From: Bacillota bacterium
Lineage (GTDB): Bacteria; Bacillota; Sulfobacillia; Sulfobacillales; Sulfobacillaceae
NCBI GenBank assembly: GCA_023475835.1
Contig: JAMCVM010000045.1
Coordinates: 1 to 34,458 of the forward strand
Direction of reading: 5' to 3'
Length of the DNA stretch: 34,458 nucleotides
In this document: positions 26,330 to 34,079 of the stretch, one piece after another
Position numbering within the stretch: position 1 is the first letter of the stretch
Layout: each line of letters begins with the position of its first letter
Made by a program: the position numbers and the translations under genes
The notes under the pieces: generated by a model
Databases searched by the model: none
What the model was told of the DNA's origin: nothing
What the model saw: the letters and a program-made list of their open reading frames with translations, nothing else

Positions 26330-26669
26330 CCCTCGTCGAGGAGAATCACAACCCAGATTCCGCAAGTCAGGAAACGAGAATTTGTCCCATTTATTGGGGC
26401 CGTGATACTGCGCTCGGGTCAACCTTGATGTTTTAAAGCATAGATTCCCGTCGTCTGCGCTATAGTGTGGGGCGGTATGACCGATAATTTGGGCCCGTGC
26501 GCAGTATAACCCGATGGATCCCAGACCAATCCGCGGTCAATAGGTATACCGAGTGCTTCGAGAAGATGGCGCTGGTAGGGCAGCACGGCGGTCCATTGTT
26601 ACCAGGGGGGCTCATTCGATAGTCGTCGAAGATTGGGTGGCCCGTCGGAACAAATTTAAAATCCTGCAC
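26330..26669 (-). pseudogene. Unidentified coding remnant interrupted by a miniature element
   Basis: Two protein-like segments flank the miniature element at 26405-26507. Before it (minus strand) one reads HPIFDDYRMSPPGN, a frameshift, then AVLPYQRHLLEALGIPIDRG and LVWDPSG. After it one reads HGPNKWDKFSFPDLRNLG. The segments may be halves of one gene. Joining them with a single TA left at the insertion point does not keep the frame, so an extra mutation is needed, or they are unrelated. I do not recognise the family. The start side overlaps an IS4-like transposase fragment. Confidence 0.35.
26405..26507 (-). mobile_element. Miniature inverted-repeat element, copy A (103 bp, shortened)
   Basis: The left end ATACTGCGCTCGGGTCAA and the complement of the right end, ATACTGCGCACGGGCCCAAA, form terminal inverted repeats. 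They match the ends of the other four copies in this window. The interior is shorter and more diverged than in copies B to E. Flanking bases are compatible with TA-targeted insertion, with one side altered. Confidence 0.75.
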
Positions 26670-26800
26670 ATGACCCCGACGAACCCGATCTTGCGGTCGC
26701 GGGTAAAATCGGTGGGACGTTCTTTGGCTCGATCCCGAAAGCGTAAATTAAGTAATGTTTGACCAAAGGTGCTGATAAGATCCAACGCTTTGACGGACAT
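26612..26800 (-). pseudogene. IS4-like transposase N-terminal fragment
   Basis: Sixty-two residues beginning MSVKALDLISTFGQTLLNLR and including RPTDFTRDRKIGFVGVMC and ILNLFRRATQ look like the helical N-terminus of IS4-type DDE transposases. Homology seems to stop after RRATQ, and the catalytic domain is absent. The assignment rests on pattern memory only. Upstream, at 26899-26938, lies a perfect 13-bp inverted repeat. Confidence 0.5.
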
Positions 26801-27263
26801 TATTACCGCTTCCAGTGCTAGAATACTGGAAGGTGGCCCGAAGATTCAGCTTTTTTACCGGCGGAAGCGCTGAGCCTCCGAAATCCGAGGTCATCACTCT
26901 GATCAATGGTTTCCTAAATACAGCGAACCATTGATCAGAAAATCCTTAACCTGACAACATTGGGGTGCATCCGCGCGGGAGGCTCACACGGATTCGCGAT
27001 AACACCCGTGGTTTCGGTAGAGGCATGCACAGTGGATTGTTTGGGCGAAGATGCTGAGATAACGTCAACGGATGAGATCAGATTCGAACTTTCAGTCTTC
27101 TTGTCTTCGAAGTATACATGCTTCCTGGCTAGGCCGCAGTTTAAGCTTGGGCCTTAACCTTGAAATGGATCAGGCGCGGTGAATGTTAAATTCTAGATGT
27201 GATTCATAACAAGTGTTCCAAGTAGGTTATGCTGTGGAGAGAAACGCAATAGAGGAGGAACTA
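26801..27263. other. Non-coding region with two perfect inverted repeats
   Basis: CTTCCAGT/ACTGGAAG (26809-26832, 8-nt loop) and CTGATCAATGGTT/AACCATTGATCAG (26899-26938, 14-nt loop) lie upstream of the IS4-like fragment on its strand and may be insertion-sequence end structures. The rest, up to the ribosome site of the oxidoreductase, shows nothing I can name. Confidence 0.5.
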
Positions 27264-28361
27264 ATGATGAGTGTCAACGATGGGATGAACTATGCTCCGC
27301 AAGGGAAACCTCGTCCGGTGTGCTCGCCCGGAGAGTTTGTTATCGCCGCGGTGAGCTTGGACCACGGTCATATCTATGGCATGGTGAATGGGTTAACCGA
27401 GGCCGGAGCTCAAATAAAGTGGGTGTATGATCCGGATCCGGCCAAGGTGGCCCAATTTCTCAAGACCTATCCTGGTGCTCGGGCAGCCGCCAGTGAACAA
27501 GAGGTATTAGATGATCGTGAAGTGCGTTTGGTAGCAGGGGCTGCCATCACCTCCAAGCGCGCGGCTTTGGGGATGCGGGTATTGGAGCACGGCAAGGACT
27601 ATTTCACGGACAAAGCTCCGTTTACCACTCTGGCTCAACTGGAGGCAGCGCGGAAGCGAGTCAAAAGCACCGGGTTAAAATATGCGGTGTATTATAGCGA
27701 ACGTCTTCACGTAGAAAGCGCGGTGTTCGCGGGTCAACTCATTGATGAGGGGGCCATTGGCCGCGTCATCCAGGTCATGGGGATGGGCCCGCACCGCCTA
27801 AGAGCGTCCAGTCGGCCAGCCTGGTTTTTTGAAAAGCAGCACTATGGCGGGATACTATGCGATATCGGCAGCCATCAAATTGAGCAAATTCTGGCGTACA
27901 CCGGCGCACACGACGCCAAACTTACCATGAGTCGAGTGGCCAATTACGACCATCCTGAGTTTCCAGAACTCGAAGACTTTGGTGAGGCTAGCCTAGTGAC
28001 GGACAATGGCAGCGGCGGATATTTTCGCGTGGATTGGTTTACGCCCGACGGACTGGGAACGTGGGGAGACGGTCGCACTTTCATCATCGGTACCAAAGGC
28101 TTTATTGAACTTAGAAAGTATATCGACTTGGGGCGTGACACCGAAGGCAGTCACCTCTATTTGGCCAATCAGGAGGGTGAGTGGCATTTACCCGTGCAGG
28201 GCAAAGTCGGCTATCCTTTCTTTGGCCAGTTAATTTTAGATTGTCTCAACCGAACCGAAGAGGCCATGACTCAAGCCCATGCTTTTAAAGCCGCAGAACT
28301 TTGCCTCATCGCGGAACGCGATGCCGAGGTGACAGAGCGCGATCCGATGTCGCAAGCGTGA
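27264..28361 (+). CDS. Gfo/Idh/MocA-family oxidoreductase
   Basis: A 365-residue NAD(P)-dependent sugar or cyclitol dehydrogenase of the Gfo/Idh/MocA group. The N-terminal Rossmann part begins FVIAAVSLDHGHIYGMV, departing from the usual GxGxxG. The catalytic lysine motif (normally EKP) appears as TDKAPF. The second domain contains YYSERLH and GGILCDIGSHQIEQILAYTG, the substrate-side histidine region. No signal peptide. The substrate cannot be read from the sequence. ATG 27264 is chosen because GAGGAGG precedes it; the frame upstream to 27213 lacks such a site. It stands alone between decayed mobile-element DNA and a shared hairpin. Confidence 0.88.
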   Translation: MMSVNDGMNYAPQGKPRPVCSPGEFVIAAVSLDHGHIYGMVNGLTEAGAQIKWVYDPDPAKVAQFLKTYPGARAAASEQEVLDDREVRLVAGAAITSKRAALGMRVLEHGKDYFTDKAPFTTLAQLEAARKRVKSTGLKYAVYYSERLHVESAVFAGQLIDEGAIGRVIQVMGMGPHRLRASSRPAWFFEKQHYGGILCDIGSHQIEQILAYTGAHDAKLTMSRVANYDHPEFPELEDFGEASLVTDNGSGGYFRVDWFTPDGLGTWGDGRTFIIGTKGFIELRKYIDLGRDTEGSHLYLANQEGEWHLPVQGKVGYPFFGQLILDCLNRTEEAMTQAHAFKAAELCLIAERDAEVTERDPMSQA

Positions 28362-28415
28362 TTTGTGGAGGCTCGCTCAGACAAGATGGCAGAGAGCCTA
28401 AAGCTCACTGCCCGC

Positions 28416-28454
28416 GAAGGGATGTCGAGCCGCCGTTGGCGGTGATATCCCTTC
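28416..28454. terminator. Hairpin between convergent genes
   Basis: GAAGGGAT (28416-28423) pairs with ATCCCTTC (28447-28454), and GCCGCC with GGCGGT closes the inner part around GTT. It lies between the oxidoreductase stop (28361) and the acyltransferase stop (28463) and may serve both strands. No T-run follows on either side. Confidence 0.55.
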
Positions 28455-28462
28455 AACGGCGG

Positions 28463-29620
28463 TTACGAACTTAAGGCCTGGTCTTCGATGGAGGTTTCAC
28501 TAGGAAATCTTGGCCGACCCCAGCCTAAGCGCGCGATCCATCGCCGACCCAGGGCGATTGCGGGTTGTTCAACCCATCGGAAGGTGATCTCGGAAACTAC
28601 TAAACTGGCCAAAAGCCCAATCCCAAGGCGTATCAGCCAGGCTGTGAGTGTCGGCGGGGCAGCGAAGGCGAGATCACAAATCTTTGCTAAGATGAGCCAG
28701 TGGACCAAATAAATGCTGTAGCTTCGCGTGCCAATGTAGCGCAGCCAACGATTTTCAATCAGCCAACGGATCCCTCGATAGTTGTGCCAGGTCAGCCAAA
28801 CCAAAAGAAAATTGGGGGCTACCCAGAGTAGATTGGCGGTGCGTGGGGCCCAAAGGTGACCACCGAGGAAGACCGCCGAAATCAGCCAAAGGGTTCCCCA
28901 ACCCACCATGGTCGGATAGGCTCGGTAGGCGAGAACTAAAAAGCCGGCTGCGAACCAGATCCATTGCTCCGGGAAGGACCATAGTAAGAAGGACTTGGCC
29001 CATGTCGGCCAAGGGAACCAAAGATGCAACAAGAGCCAGGGCCAGAATAGGGCGAGGCCAATACCAAGCGCCAGGAAGACTCTGGCGTCAATTTTCGGCA
29101 ATACTTTCTCCATGATCCACGGAAAGAGAAAATAAAACGTCATCTCGACCCCGATCGACCACTCTACTCCGATCCAGGAGTTTTGAAACCAAGGCAGCCA
29201 ACCGAAGACAAATGTGACGTGGGCGACGAGATTTGCCCACGTGAAGAGGTGATGTTTCATGCTTTGTGGGACTACGGTAGGATTGCCGGCGTGGAGCACG
29301 TATGCCGCCAACAGGACCAGGTAGAACATCGGGGCGATGCGCAGAAAGCGTCTCAGCCAAAAGGCCTTGGCCGGTTCCCGATCTACCTGGCGCCGATGCT
29401 GCCAACTGAGTGCTAAGGTCAGCGCGCTGACCATGTAGAACAGACCGACGCCTTGAGCGCCTTGGCCCACAAAACGCATCCACCAGGGGCCGTGGAAAAA
29501 GGGACGAATAATATAAGCATGAAAGGTGACTACACTTAAGATGGCGATGCCGCGCAGCGCATCGAGCTGGCCGTATCGTGGAGGGGTGGACGAGGAGGCC
29601 CTAGTTGATGGATTTGGCAT
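28463..29620 (-). CDS. Acyltransferase-3 family membrane protein
   Basis: A 385-residue integral membrane O-acyltransferase (OafA/YrhL type), which moves acyl groups onto sugars of surface polymers or similar acceptors. The family start GQLDALRGIAILSVVTFHAY gives the conserved R and catalytic H. About ten hydrophobic segments rich in Trp follow, with the late motif YIGTRSYSIYLVHW near residue 305. No C-terminal SGNH domain is present. The ATG at 29620 has AGGAGGA 10 nt upstream. It has no partner genes; its acceptor is unknown. Confidence 0.9.
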   Translation of the reverse strand: MPNPSTRASSSTPPRYGQLDALRGIAILSVVTFHAYIIRPFFHGPWWMRFVGQGAQGVGLFYMVSALTLALSWQHRRQVDREPAKAFWLRRFLRIAPMFYLVLLAAYVLHAGNPTVVPQSMKHHLFTWANLVAHVTFVFGWLPWFQNSWIGVEWSIGVEMTFYFLFPWIMEKVLPKIDARVFLALGIGLALFWPWLLLHLWFPWPTWAKSFLLWSFPEQWIWFAAGFLVLAYRAYPTMVGWGTLWLISAVFLGGHLWAPRTANLLWVAPNFLLVWLTWHNYRGIRWLIENRWLRYIGTRSYSIYLVHWLILAKICDLAFAAPPTLTAWLIRLGIGLLASLVVSEITFRWVEQPAIALGRRWIARLGWGRPRFPSETSIEDQALSS

Positions 29621-30035
29621 CTTGCTTGATTCCTCCTAAGTTTCACGCGAGTGTTTGTGCCGCTTCTGTCAATAGGCCTGGGGCAGAACTTAATAGGCGC
29701 ATAGGAAATCAGACAATGTCGCAAACACGGTGGAATACTGGATGACCGTAAGCCACGAACTGGTCACGCCCATGGTTTAGAGCGAAGTGGAATCAGCGGG
29801 TGTACCCTTGAGTCCATGCTATCAGGAGATTTTCGAGCAAGGAAGGCGAACTGGCGAACTTCAGTAAGACTTCAAGTCGAGGAAGCGAGGCAAAGGAGCC
29901 AGGAACCGGGTTATATATGCCCGGTCGTAAAGATCTTAAATCGGTGCAGCCGTAGAATGGGGAAATTATTCCTGGACAAAGTCCTTCCAACGGAGTATCG
30001 TCGTTGTCTCCGTTGGAAAACAGGAGGAACGTGTC
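29621..30035. other. Non-coding region before the IS630 remnant
   Basis: Two hairpins are visible: ACCGGG/CCCGGT (29905-29925) and a perfect 11-bp pair TTCCAACGGAG/CTCCGTTGGAA (29985-30018) just ahead of the AGGAGG of the transposase remnant. The second may belong to the left end of the IS630 element. No gene recognised. Confidence 0.45.
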
Positions 30036-31135
30036 ATGGTAGCAAATCCCCGCGAGTCCTCGTCGGTGCACATGCCTCACCGCCCCACGCACCTATTATT
30101 CACTGATGCGAAAATGTTGGTCATCATATTGGGAAGCGAGGAAATACGTTGCCGAACGACTCCGGTATGAACAGCATCAAGCGGGGGCCATGATGTTGCA
30201 AAGGTACCCCTATGTCGAAATTGGCCGAATCATCCAGCGGTCGGTGACGACCGTCTGGCAGTACATCCGGCCCTGCCGCGCTTGGGGCCTTCCGGTGTTG
30301 GATCTCCGCCATTCTCACGGGCGTCCCATCGTCTGACCCCGGAGCAAGAATATACTGGGCGCGGGTACCATTTGACCATGTGATTCTAATGCCGTGGGCG
30401 TCTCAACACCTTGTTGCATAACCGTTTCGCAACACGATGGCGTTCGCCCAAAAACGAAAACTGTGACCCGCCTTCAGAATAGCAAGTGGCGCACGTCGTG
30501 ACCTTCAACACGTCCCAGGACATCGGCTTCCCGGCGAACATGCACGGGACCTCGCCCATCGTCCGAGACTACATTCAGAACACCTTTGAGGTCACTTATT
30601 ACCCTGACGAGCACATGGTCAGACCGCGGAACCCGAGGTTTACTGTATCGCTTGGGATTCCGTTGCATCCGACCCAGCTACCCTTTAGCCAAGTCGGATC
30701 TCGAAAATCAATCCGTGTTTCGAGCCGACTTTGAGGTCAAAAAACAATGCCTGAAGGGCCAGATTGACCGCATTCTACTTGAAGACGAGTCGAGGATTCG
30801 CGAGGATCAAGCCATTGGGCGCATGGTTTAGAAAGGGCCCACAAACGGCCTAAGGCAAACATTTGGACGATAAACTGTTGGGCATCGTAGACTATGAAAT
30901 CGACGAAGTATTTTGTCAGCATGAGGAGCAGTGTACGGCGGTGGAGTGTCTGTCCTTTCTGACTACGGTCGTCGCCCTCTACGCCAGCGAAGAAATTGCG
31001 ATCGTGTTGGACAATGCCGCCATTGACCATGCCAACATGATTTAACCGTGTCTCGAAGAACATCGGGACGGACCACTGGACGTCGATATTTGTACCGCCC
31101 TATAGTCCGCAATTACACTTGATTGAGGGCGCGTG
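30036..31135 (+). pseudogene. IS630-family transposase, multiply broken and interrupted
   Basis: A ribosome site AGGAGG precedes ATG 30036 (MVANPRESSSVHMPHRPTH). After a shift near 30106 the helix-turn-helix part follows: EARKYVAERLRYEQHQ, VEIGRIIQRSVTTVWQYI, HGRPI, then after a further shift LTPEQE. A miniature element (30351-30481) sits here. Beyond it reads QVAHVVTFNTSQDIGFPANM and IVRDYIQNTF, then another frame RLGFRCIRPSYPLAKSD. The DDE domain shows RILLEDESRI (first D), IVLDNAAIDHANMI (second D) and, shifted, PPYSPQLHLIEG (final E). At least four frame breaks make it inactive. Confidence 0.85.
30351..30481 (+). mobile_element. Miniature inverted-repeat element, copy E (131 bp) inside IS630
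   Basis: It begins TATACTGGGCGCGGGTA and ends GTGACCCGCCTTCAGAATA. The inner core GTGGGCGTCTCAACACCTTG is shared with copy D. It lies between LTPEQE and QVAHVV of the IS630 transposase, so it inserted into a transposase gene. Confidence 0.85.
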
Positions 31136-31366
31136 CGGCTCTAACTCGTCCGTTCCCACCATCGCTCCCATTCTCCCCCTCGAGTAGCATTCGCAAGGGT
31201 CTAAAGGCTTGGGCAATTGGGGGGAGGTTCGACAGCGAGATCCGAGCGTCTCACCATTCGGAAAACACGCCCATCATATCGTCCATGGACTCCGCCACCC
31301 ACCAATAAGTCTCCCCTTAGTACCTCGATCGCCGAAGCGATCCTCCGTTCGGTCGCTCTTAGGGGC
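31136..31366. other. Unassigned stretch after IS630 remnant
   Basis: No gene or strong repeat recognised. It may contain the right end of the IS630 copy, but I could not define it. Confidence 0.3.
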
Positions 31367-31497
31367 TATACGGCGCGCGGGTCAACGTTTTCGTTTTCTA
31401 GCAAAGTCACCGGATACCCGGACGTCTGGTTTAGCGGGGTGTAGGCACGTTCACGGCTTCGTTGTCAAATCGCCAAGTTCGGCCCGCTCGCAGTATA
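31367..31497 (-). mobile_element. Miniature inverted-repeat element, copy B (131 bp)
   Basis: Left end TATACGGCGCGCGGGTCAA; right end CGGCCCGCTCGCAGTATA. Read on the minus strand it aligns with copy D along the whole length, including ACGAAAAC before the final repeat, though the centre is diverged. The insertion is flanked by TA on both sides. Confidence 0.8.
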
Positions 31498-31909
31498 CGA
31501 CTAGCCGATCTTTCAGATCGTTACGACCGGATATATAGCACGTACACTGGATAGAATATTAAGCAAGGGAGTCCGGGCATCAGAGTGTGCACTATCGGTT
31601 TTGATCCGGATGAAAGCAGTTCAAACTTTGGTGGGTTTCCAGTATAGTCTGTACACCGTCCGCAATCACTATCGCAGCCCCAAACGTAAGCATCTTCATT
31701 CGCGTGATCAAAGCGAATTCTCCTTGTCTCTGTGGACCAAATTCGGGTCCGTGATCCCGAATTTGGTCCACTTCACCCATTAAAATCCTCGAGGATTTGG
31801 CTATTGTTAAGCATCCTCAATTTGGGGCAGACTAGCCTAACTGCGAGCGCCTACCAACGAATTTCAAGACTTTTCATCTTCAATGAGTTAATCTACAAAA
31901 TAACTGAAC
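31498..31909. other. Unassigned stretch with two long palindromes
   Basis: TGGACCAAATTCGGG (31733-31747) pairs perfectly with CCCGAATTTGGTCCA (31756-31770) over an 8-nt loop, and AAATCCTCGAGGATTT (31783-31798) is a perfect 16-bp palindrome. Their closeness suggests an insertion-sequence end or a strong terminator. No gene recognised. Confidence 0.45.
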
Positions 31910-32040
31910 TATACTGCGCGCGGATCATAGTTTTCGTTTTTAGGATAACGCCATCGTCTTGGAAAATCATTATGGAACCATGGGTTGAGACGCCCACAGC
32001 CTTGGCATCAACCCGTCAAATTTGACCCGCGTGCAGTATA
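31910..32040 (-). mobile_element. Miniature inverted-repeat element, copy C (131 bp)
   Basis: Left end TATACTGCGCGCGGATCATA; right end TTTGACCCGCGTGCAGTATA. On the minus strand it carries GATGCCAAGGCTGTG followed by GCGTCTCAAC, nearly identical to copy D. It is flanked by TA-rich sequence. Confidence 0.9.
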
Positions 32041-32405
32041 TATATCCGGCACTAACGACCAATATGGGCTCTGACGCCGTTTGAGTATCTTACTTGTTCC
32101 CGCGCGTGACGCGTTTCAATTCTTTACTGCCGAATATAGGACGATTTGTAACCTAGGGTGATTTATGAACGTTATATAAGCAGGGGCACACTAGAAACCG
32201 TCTGCTCTGATTCATCGATGCCCTAGCGACCCTGTGGACCTACCGAATTTTGGGGGATACGGCGTCCGGAGCCATTTCCTCGAAAATCACCCCAGAAATT
32301 ATCCGGATCGTATCGGAGGCGGAATGAGCCGCAACGGCCTTGGAGAAAAACCGCAAAGTCCACAATTGTGTATGTTCTAGAAAGTCAGATTAGGGGCGTG
32401 TCCAC
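32041..32405 (+). other. Intergenic region with a possible coding remnant
   Basis: From about 32216 to 32400 one forward frame reads IDALATLWTYRILGDTASGA, SSKITPEIIRIVSEAE, a stop (near 32325), then AATALEKNRKVHNCVC. It looks like protein but has no start, contains a stop, and matches no family I know. The rest is AT-rich with nothing recognisable. The ribosome site of the next gene is weak (AGGGG). Confidence 0.3.
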
Positions 32406-33623
32406 ATGACGAGAGAACAGAAAACCCGGGAATGGCATCAATTGGCACGGTCCCACACGACCACCGTACTCACAAAAAATCGATGGCTCCAGCGACTCCT
32501 TTCCATCATCATCGCAACCATGCTAGGAATTGGCATCGAGATCTCGGCGCTTCCGCGTCCAAGCAAGGCTGCAGCGTCTTTTCGTTCCATGGTCGTCCCT
32601 GCGATCGCCGTGGACCATGGCACGCCTTTAATATTGAGCGCCTCTCGCCGGCAAATCGTGGTGGAACATCAGCAAGGCTCCGATTGGCATCGACAGGTGG
32701 TAGCCGCAGTTTCCTCTCAGGACACCGTGACTGCAACCTCGCTCATCTGTCAATCGCAAGGCTGCATAGCCGCTGTAGTCGTTGCCAGCAGCCTGCCACG
32801 ACCTTCGGCCCATATCTGGGTGTTCCGACCGCAGAACTTCAACTCCAAGCTGTTGTGGACCCATGTGACTACCATGACCGTGCCGAGTTATCTCGTCGGA
32901 CACGTGTATCTAGCCCTCGCAGGTCGGTACGCGTGGTTGATGGCCACGACCACCCCGGCGCTCGGTCAAATGCCTAAAATCCTCTGGGCTAGTCATGATC
33001 GAGGAGTTCGATGGAGACTATTGGCGACGGGAAGTCTTCCGTCCTTGGCCGCCGATCAGGAATTTCCAGCTCCCGACTATCTGCCGTTCGGCTATCCTGA
33101 TGGGATGGTCGGAAATACCCATGGAACCTTGACCGTGGCAACAAGTCCCCGTGGCGGAGATATCAAACTGGAAACGGTATACCAGATGAACCGTCCAGGG
33201 GTACAAGTGTTAACGTTTAATGTGCCCCCGGCCTTTCGGCCGATTTATGAGGGATTTCCTGCGCTGTACGGGCGATCACAGGTGGAAATTCCACTTCTAG
33301 AGTCTCACCACGGACATGCGTACCTCGCCCTAGCCAGCCGAAGGAATGAGAGCACTCATTGGAGCATGTACCAATGGGGCCCAACTATCAGCGGCCCTTC
33401 CGTAATTTTTACCGGCAAGGACACGGACATCCTTGTCGGCCTGAAGACATTACAGATCGTCTCGCTGAACCGCCAGGTCATCCAGTTGCCCATCGTTTCC
33501 GCCTTTCAGATGCCATTGGTCGCAGCCGCCATCGCTCCGGGAAAGATCATCGTATTAGGGCATGGTCAGACATTCTGGGTGAACACCAACCGAGGCCTCT
33601 GGCGACAATGGAGACCTGTGTAG
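32406..33623 (+). CDS. Exported or membrane-anchored Asp-box (beta-propeller-like) protein
   Basis: A 405-residue protein with a positively charged N-terminus and one hydrophobic segment at about residues 31-49 (LLSIIIATMLGIGIEISAL), a signal anchor or signal peptide. The rest is beta-rich with repeated strands and one clear Asp-box, SHDRGVRWRLL (S-x-D-x-G-x-x-W), the loop found in sialidase and BNR-repeat propellers. The family usually binds or cleaves glycans or other outside ligands, but no catalytic residues can be assigned here. The uninterrupted frame in decayed surroundings suggests a working gene. Function unknown. Confidence 0.75.
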   Translation: MTREQKTREWHQLARSHTTTVLTKNRWLQRLLSIIIATMLGIGIEISALPRPSKAAASFRSMVVPAIAVDHGTPLILSASRRQIVVEHQQGSDWHRQVVAAVSSQDTVTATSLICQSQGCIAAVVVASSLPRPSAHIWVFRPQNFNSKLLWTHVTTMTVPSYLVGHVYLALAGRYAWLMATTTPALGQMPKILWASHDRGVRWRLLATGSLPSLAADQEFPAPDYLPFGYPDGMVGNTHGTLTVATSPRGGDIKLETVYQMNRPGVQVLTFNVPPAFRPIYEGFPALYGRSQVEIPLLESHHGHAYLALASRRNESTHWSMYQWGPTISGPSVIFTGKDTDILVGLKTLQIVSLNRQVIQLPIVSAFQMPLVAAAIAPGKIIVLGHGQTFWVNTNRGLWRQWRPV

Positions 33624-33949
33624 CGTCCATCCATCGCGATCACGCGGTTCTCGTATGATACCGCGACCCAGGATACCTTACGCGGACCCGGTGTCCTTAT
33701 GAAATTTGCTGGAGTCACCGAAGACGATCGTACGGACTTAGCGTGCCAGTACATCTGTGTTCCGCCGGGTGTGACGACTGTTTGGGTAGCGGTGGAATGC
33801 CAGAAACCAATGGAATGACCTTGTGGCCTCAGAATCAATTGGAATCCGGTGAACGAACACTTCGACCCGGTTGGGAAGAGACGTCCAAGCAATTCATGCG
33901 CTGGCAGACGTTTCCTCATTTCAACTGCGGGTGTGGCACGGCTATGAGG
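33624..33949 (+). other. Region with an unidentified coding remnant
   Basis: In frame with and directly after the stop of the Asp-box gene, about 33624-33813 reads AITRFSYDTATQDTLRGPGV, MKFAGVTEDDRTDLACQYIC and PPGVTTVWVAVECQKPME before a stop. It looks protein-like, but there is no start codon with a ribosome site. It could be the remains of another gene. Nothing else is recognised. Confidence 0.3.
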
Positions 33950-34079
33950 TATACTGCGAGCGGGTCGAATTTATCGGTTTGATGCCAAGGCTGTGAGCGT
34001 CTCAACACCTTGCTTCATAGTGAGTTCCCAACACTTTGGCCTTCCTCTAAAACGGAAACTATGACCCGCGCGCAGTATA
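33950..34079 (+). mobile_element. Miniature inverted-repeat element, copy D (130 bp)
   Basis: Left end TATACTGCGAGCGGGTCGAA; right end ATGACCCGCGCGCAGTATA. The interior GATGCCAAGGCTGTG then GCGTCTCAACACCTTG is the best-preserved version shared with C and E. It is flanked by TA. Confidence 0.9.

Follow-up and report, generated by a model that had tools for sequence, protein, structure and literature searches.

Short TA-bordered inverted-repeat elements in two sister species of Sulfobacillaceae, and their candidate IS630-type partner

The five copies in the window

The window, by which we mean the whole analyzed stretch of 34,458 nucleotides, poses a question on account of the short inverted repeats that crowd into 7.7 kb of it: are these miniature inverted-repeat elements (MITEs) mobile and, if so, what moves them? 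The first-pass annotation had described five copies of about 131 bp, and all five were recovered where it had placed them, namely, as four full copies of 130-131 bp and one decayed copy (A), already recognized as shortened, which measures 105 bp (Table 1). The repeats lie far beyond chance expectation because five correctly spaced pairs of terminal inverted repeats (TIRs), 95-145 bp apart, are present in the window compared with none in 20 order-1 Markov shuffles. A profile built partly from B-E, but with copy A left out, recovers all five window copies, the E-values being 7e-4 for A, 2e-29 for B, 1e-23 for C, 4e-35 for D, and 5e-33 for E. As had been noted, none of the five encodes a protein.

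Table 1. Coordinates of the MITE copies and of the element that hosts two of them (positions in the window)
Feature	Position	Strand	Remarks
Copy A, decayed, internally shortened MITE	26404-26508	unresolvable	105 bp; common to G009
Copy B, subfamily 1 MITE	30351-30481	+	inside an unrelated IS630-type transposase remnant; common to G009
Copy C, MITE of subfamily 2 with another core	31367-31497	-	toward the right end of the remnant that holds B; common to G009
Copy D, subfamily 1 MITE	31910-32040	-	site unoccupied in G009
Copy D, element proper	31912-32038		127 bp
Copy D, TA duplication	31910-31911 and 32039-32040		borders of the element
Copy E, subfamily 1 MITE	33950-34079	+	common to G009
Decayed IS630-type element, host of B and C, not a MITE	29914-31538	+	TIRs TATATGCCCGGTCGTAAAGATC.../...GATCGTTACGACCGGATATA

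Copies B and E carry an exact inner core GCGTCTCAACACCTTG, D carries a near-exact one (GCGTCTCAACCCATGG, minus strand), and C, a member of the second subfamily, has none. The core had originally been attributed to C, D, and E, which holds for E and D but not for C, the third carrier being B. The orientations first proposed, D and E against A, B, and C, have to be revised as well: the core and the profile put B and E on the plus strand and C and D on the minus strand, and copy A is too decayed to orient, given its nearly equal profile scores of 14.7 bits (plus) and 14.2 bits (minus).

The remnant that hosts B and C retains a DDE_3 match (30848-31069) with 2 stops. The MITEs are not a part of this remnant, which has other ends and the relatives of which in the sister species G009 (C161, C149) run through the very point of B without B. 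The end of the remnant at 31518-31537, TCGTTACGACCGGATATATA, recurs inverted at 32039-32058, adjoining copy D; this suggests a second fragment of that IS, at the TA-rich tip of which copy D seems to have landed.

Empty sites, copy number, and subfamilies

The window region is found in G009 at 95-99% identity, and copies A, B, C, and E are occupied there too, which implies that not every copy is recent. Copy D is missing from the syntenic C399 locus of G009, the flanks of which are ~97% identical. At this locus, G009 reads GAAC-TA-TATACCCGG vs. the filled GAAC-TA-[127 bp]-TA-TATATCCGG or, in another rendering, GAAC-TATATACCCGG in G009 and GAAC-TA-[127 bp]-TATATATCCGG in the window. The insertion thus adds 129 bp, that is, a 127-bp element and a 2-bp (TA) duplication, and a 4-bp TATA target duplication is ruled out by the same empty site. 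A second, independent demonstration of TA duplication comes from a nested MITE (L079:6720-6979), which splits the end GGGTCATAGTTTTCG of another MITE into GGGTCA-TA-[MITE]-TA-GTTTTCG. When the flanks of 12 further copies from the window's genome were joined and sought in G009, six had a continuous empty counterpart, with the TA kept in four of these sites and the dinucleotide changed in two; reciprocally, among 8 G009 copies tested fully, one is empty in the window's genome. The vacant sites that the first-pass annotation proposed to seek in relatives are therefore at hand, at D and at six other loci, with one case in the opposite direction, and together with the nested insertion, they show that the MITE is mobile.

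The window's genome is a 3.8-Mb draft in 246 contigs, estimated to be 97% complete, and a search of it with copy E found dozens of places. The 18-bp end, with up to 3 mismatches, has 78 plus-strand and 80 minus-strand matches there, whereas the reversed control has 17 and 14, respectively. The sampled loci contain 53 paired-TIR copies with ends 95-145 bp apart, nearly all of them 129-132 bp long, and a profile of 41 copies yields 139 matches in the window's genome and 132 in G009, working figures rather than exact counts, each taken from at most 150 scored candidates. The search of genome and relatives suggested at the outset thus finds abundant further copies in both species; in further genera, both of the family and of the order, the matches are essentially confined to the ends and mostly span ~31 bases. 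The element proper spans 127 bp, or 131 bp including both TA borders, with ends TACTGCGCGCGGGTCA..., and is short (<~500 bp), non-coding, TIR-bounded, and present in many dispersed copies, as MITEs in general are. The family, then, targets and duplicates TA, is dispersed, and differs in its insertions between two sister species.

Two subfamilies account for most of the copies, along with a few outliers. The main one consists of 35 copies, including B, D, and E, with a mean pairwise identity of 83%, and the second one of 10 copies, including C, with 90% identity; the cores of the two are weakly alike (27/69 positions in register, shuffle P ~0.01). There is a small chance that the subfamilies either diverged nearly to saturation or arose separately, each by capture of a short core of its own between IS630 ends common to both. 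Separate core capture, if true, would provide a clean natural case of the birth of MITEs from ends alone, and on the same reading, the copies inserted in other IS elements would damp the transposases of the latter. Same-end structures of intermediate size also exist, at L105:1972-2349 (378 bp), L069:503-1102 (600 bp), and L084:2073-2411 (339 bp), and look like either MITEs of a nested or composite kind or deletion products of an IS. In another genus (G031), the same ends bound a structure of 139 bp (L124:1733-1871), possibly, an independent MITE in that genus.

The candidate IS630-type partner and competing explanations

A full-length element with the same terminal repeats, the existence of which the first-pass annotation had proposed to check, is present in G009, where L206:447-1649 is a complete IS630 element of 1203 bp with a single 343-aa ORF. 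Both ends of this element are TATACTGCGCGCGGGTCAAACTTTACGTTTT and are identical to each other at 31/31 positions, that is, the TIRs are perfect. The 343-aa protein matches the NCBIfam IS630 equivalog at 213.8 bits (cut-off 100) and combines HTH domains with Pfam DDE_3, in a DD34E arrangement, in which 34 residues separate the E from the second D. The MITE ends match those of the IS at 27-28 of the 31 positions. The MITE cores show no detectable match to the interior of this IS (score of 12 vs. a shuffle mean of 11.2), so that the MITEs share the ends alone with their partner; an origin of the MITE as an internal-deletion derivative of the partner IS was rejected for the same lack of a core match.

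Among the sequences compared, the L206 group is the best candidate partner. In the window's own genome, a 97%-complete draft, no intact partner copy was seen, and the IS630-type elements there that do have these ends (L077:623-1835, L070:2860-3832, L071, L073) are frameshifted or truncated. Another genus has a related IS (L122:1101-2187), the 18-bp ends of which are identical and the transposase ORF of which is shortened. Among named records, those closest in the transposase gene are two contigs labeled 'Clostridiales bacterium isolate clean1781', perhaps from a near relative, and the partner IS may already have a name. Given the ~3 mismatches in 31 positions between the MITE ends and those of the known IS, a closer relative that was not seen may be the true partner.

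In the light of these findings, we consider it very likely (probability of about 0.93) that these MITEs form a non-autonomous family, mobilized in trans by the transposase of an IS630/Tc1-mariner element, the ~31-bp TIRs of which are nearly those of the MITEs; movement is read here from the sequence comparison of sites. A mover of the Tc1/mariner-IS630 type had initially been suggested by the TA borders, and this proposal gains support from the copies across the genome, the precise empty sites with their TA duplication, the nested copy, and the L206 element. ISY100, a member of the same group, transposes by cut-and-paste into TA in vitro (PMC2170065). By analogy, the HTH part of the transposase would bind the MITE ends, and the MITE would be cut out and then pasted into a TA dinucleotide, which would thereby be duplicated; the mover would presumably be a transposase of the L206 type rather than that of another IS630 of the genome.

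This last choice is where the most credible alternative arises, namely, a real MITE family moved by a different IS630 transposase, such as that of C224 or one that was not sampled, the ancestral ends being shared with the L206-type IS. Several IS630 groups coexist in the window's genome (18 DDE_3 matches), the MITE and IS ends are not identical, and an IS630-type ORF of 353 aa on contig C224 is intact, shares 69% identity with the query fragment, and has a TIR-like end ~0.5 kb downstream. The left end of C224, however, is cut by the contig start, and among the elements examined, it is the L206 group that has this TIR on both sides of the transposase gene, which leaves such a different mover a small chance. 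That the copies are merely fragments (ends) of one larger known element has a negligible one: even though an IS630 element has the same ends as the MITE, the copies have a fixed full length, two ends, and cores of their own that resemble the IS interior no better than shuffles do, and at the empty sites, it is the 127-bp unit itself that was inserted. The outcomes that the first-pass annotation had named as fatal to its proposal, a lack of further copies and of empty sites, or the copies being parts of one larger known element, thus failed to materialize.

It is highly improbable that the copies are static functional repeats, regulatory or coding for structured RNA, kept by selection rather than mobile. 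Such repeats would fit the conservation of the core within a subfamily and the strong folding of the MITE consensus into a hairpin (-52.8 kcal/mol, z = -5.9), but the hairpin is due to the end repeats, with compensatory change in 0 TIR pairs, the consensus energy over the MITE alignment is only -2.6 kcal/mol, and the TA-duplicating empty sites and the nested insertion speak for mobility against static repeats. No Rfam or tRNA match was found within the window, and an RNA element was rejected on this ground and on the absence of compensatory change in the end stem; more generally, we saw nothing that points to a conserved function, be it of an RNA or of a protein.

Known systems, novelty, and neighboring repeats

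The RUP elements of pneumococcus, for which IS630-Spn1 has been proposed as the mobilizer (PMC2229807, PMC3049150), offer the closest parallel: both families are ~107-131 bp long and non-coding, exceed 100 copies per genome, have ends like those of the IS630 family and TA insertion sites, and insert into other IS elements, as copy B does here and copy C probably does. The two differ in host and presumably in sequence, and host, length, and base composition set them apart (PMC3049150), RUP being AT-rich, with 27.5% G+C vs. ~50% in the present MITE, which also has longer end repeats (an 18-bp outer end, ~31 bp imperfect), a 127-bp element, and two core subfamilies. Compared by description, the Correia/NEMIS elements of Neisseria are likewise MITEs that are short and bordered by TA, have end repeats of ~25 bp, and reach a high copy number (PMC2229807, PMC10969869), the difference being that the present MITE has a likely partner transposase by virtue of shared ends. 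ISY100, with its DDE transposase, N-terminal HTH domains, TA target, and 2-bp duplication (PMC2170065), is autonomous, and the MITE is a non-autonomous counterpart in another lineage. As far as the account cited in PMC3049150 goes, the Nezha MITE of cyanobacteria, for which ISNpu3-like elements were proposed as movers, is similarly tied to an IS by its terminal repeats but, compared by description, differs in host and partner. In the terms of PMC10969869, the family is a MITE that shares the ends alone with an autonomous element.

We did not find the end sequence in open papers, nor an open paper that joins Sulfobacillus with a MITE; the family, for which the first-pass annotation knew of no name, also has no published name that we could find in the open literature and is, apparently, an undescribed one of a well-known kind, like RUP. 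Carriage by phages or plasmids was rejected given that the exact TIR is absent from viral contigs and the MITE has no match in plasmids. These observations leave the general view unchanged, IS630-linked MITEs such as RUP being already known, and add to it a well-documented MITE family, high in copy number and recently mobile, together with its likely autonomous partner, from a bacterial lineage that has received little study. With insertion polymorphism between them and an intact transposase gene in one, the two sister species would make a workable system for the study of MITE spread by IS630 elements.

Other repeats occur in the vicinity of the MITEs. At window position 31317/31318, G009 (C399, L156) has an extra ~123 bp, GGAGCCTGTCCGTTAATT...ATGGACAAACTCC, which may be a small mobile element of another kind, absent from the window's genome. 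Another interspersed repeat, of ~330 bp and 74-80% identity, lies at 26632-26975 and is found, in full or in part, in about a dozen places in the window's genome and in several in G009, the contigs of which break at its border. A ~170-bp repeat at 32194-32363 has relatives in C232, C169, C4, and C156 and in about nine places in G009.
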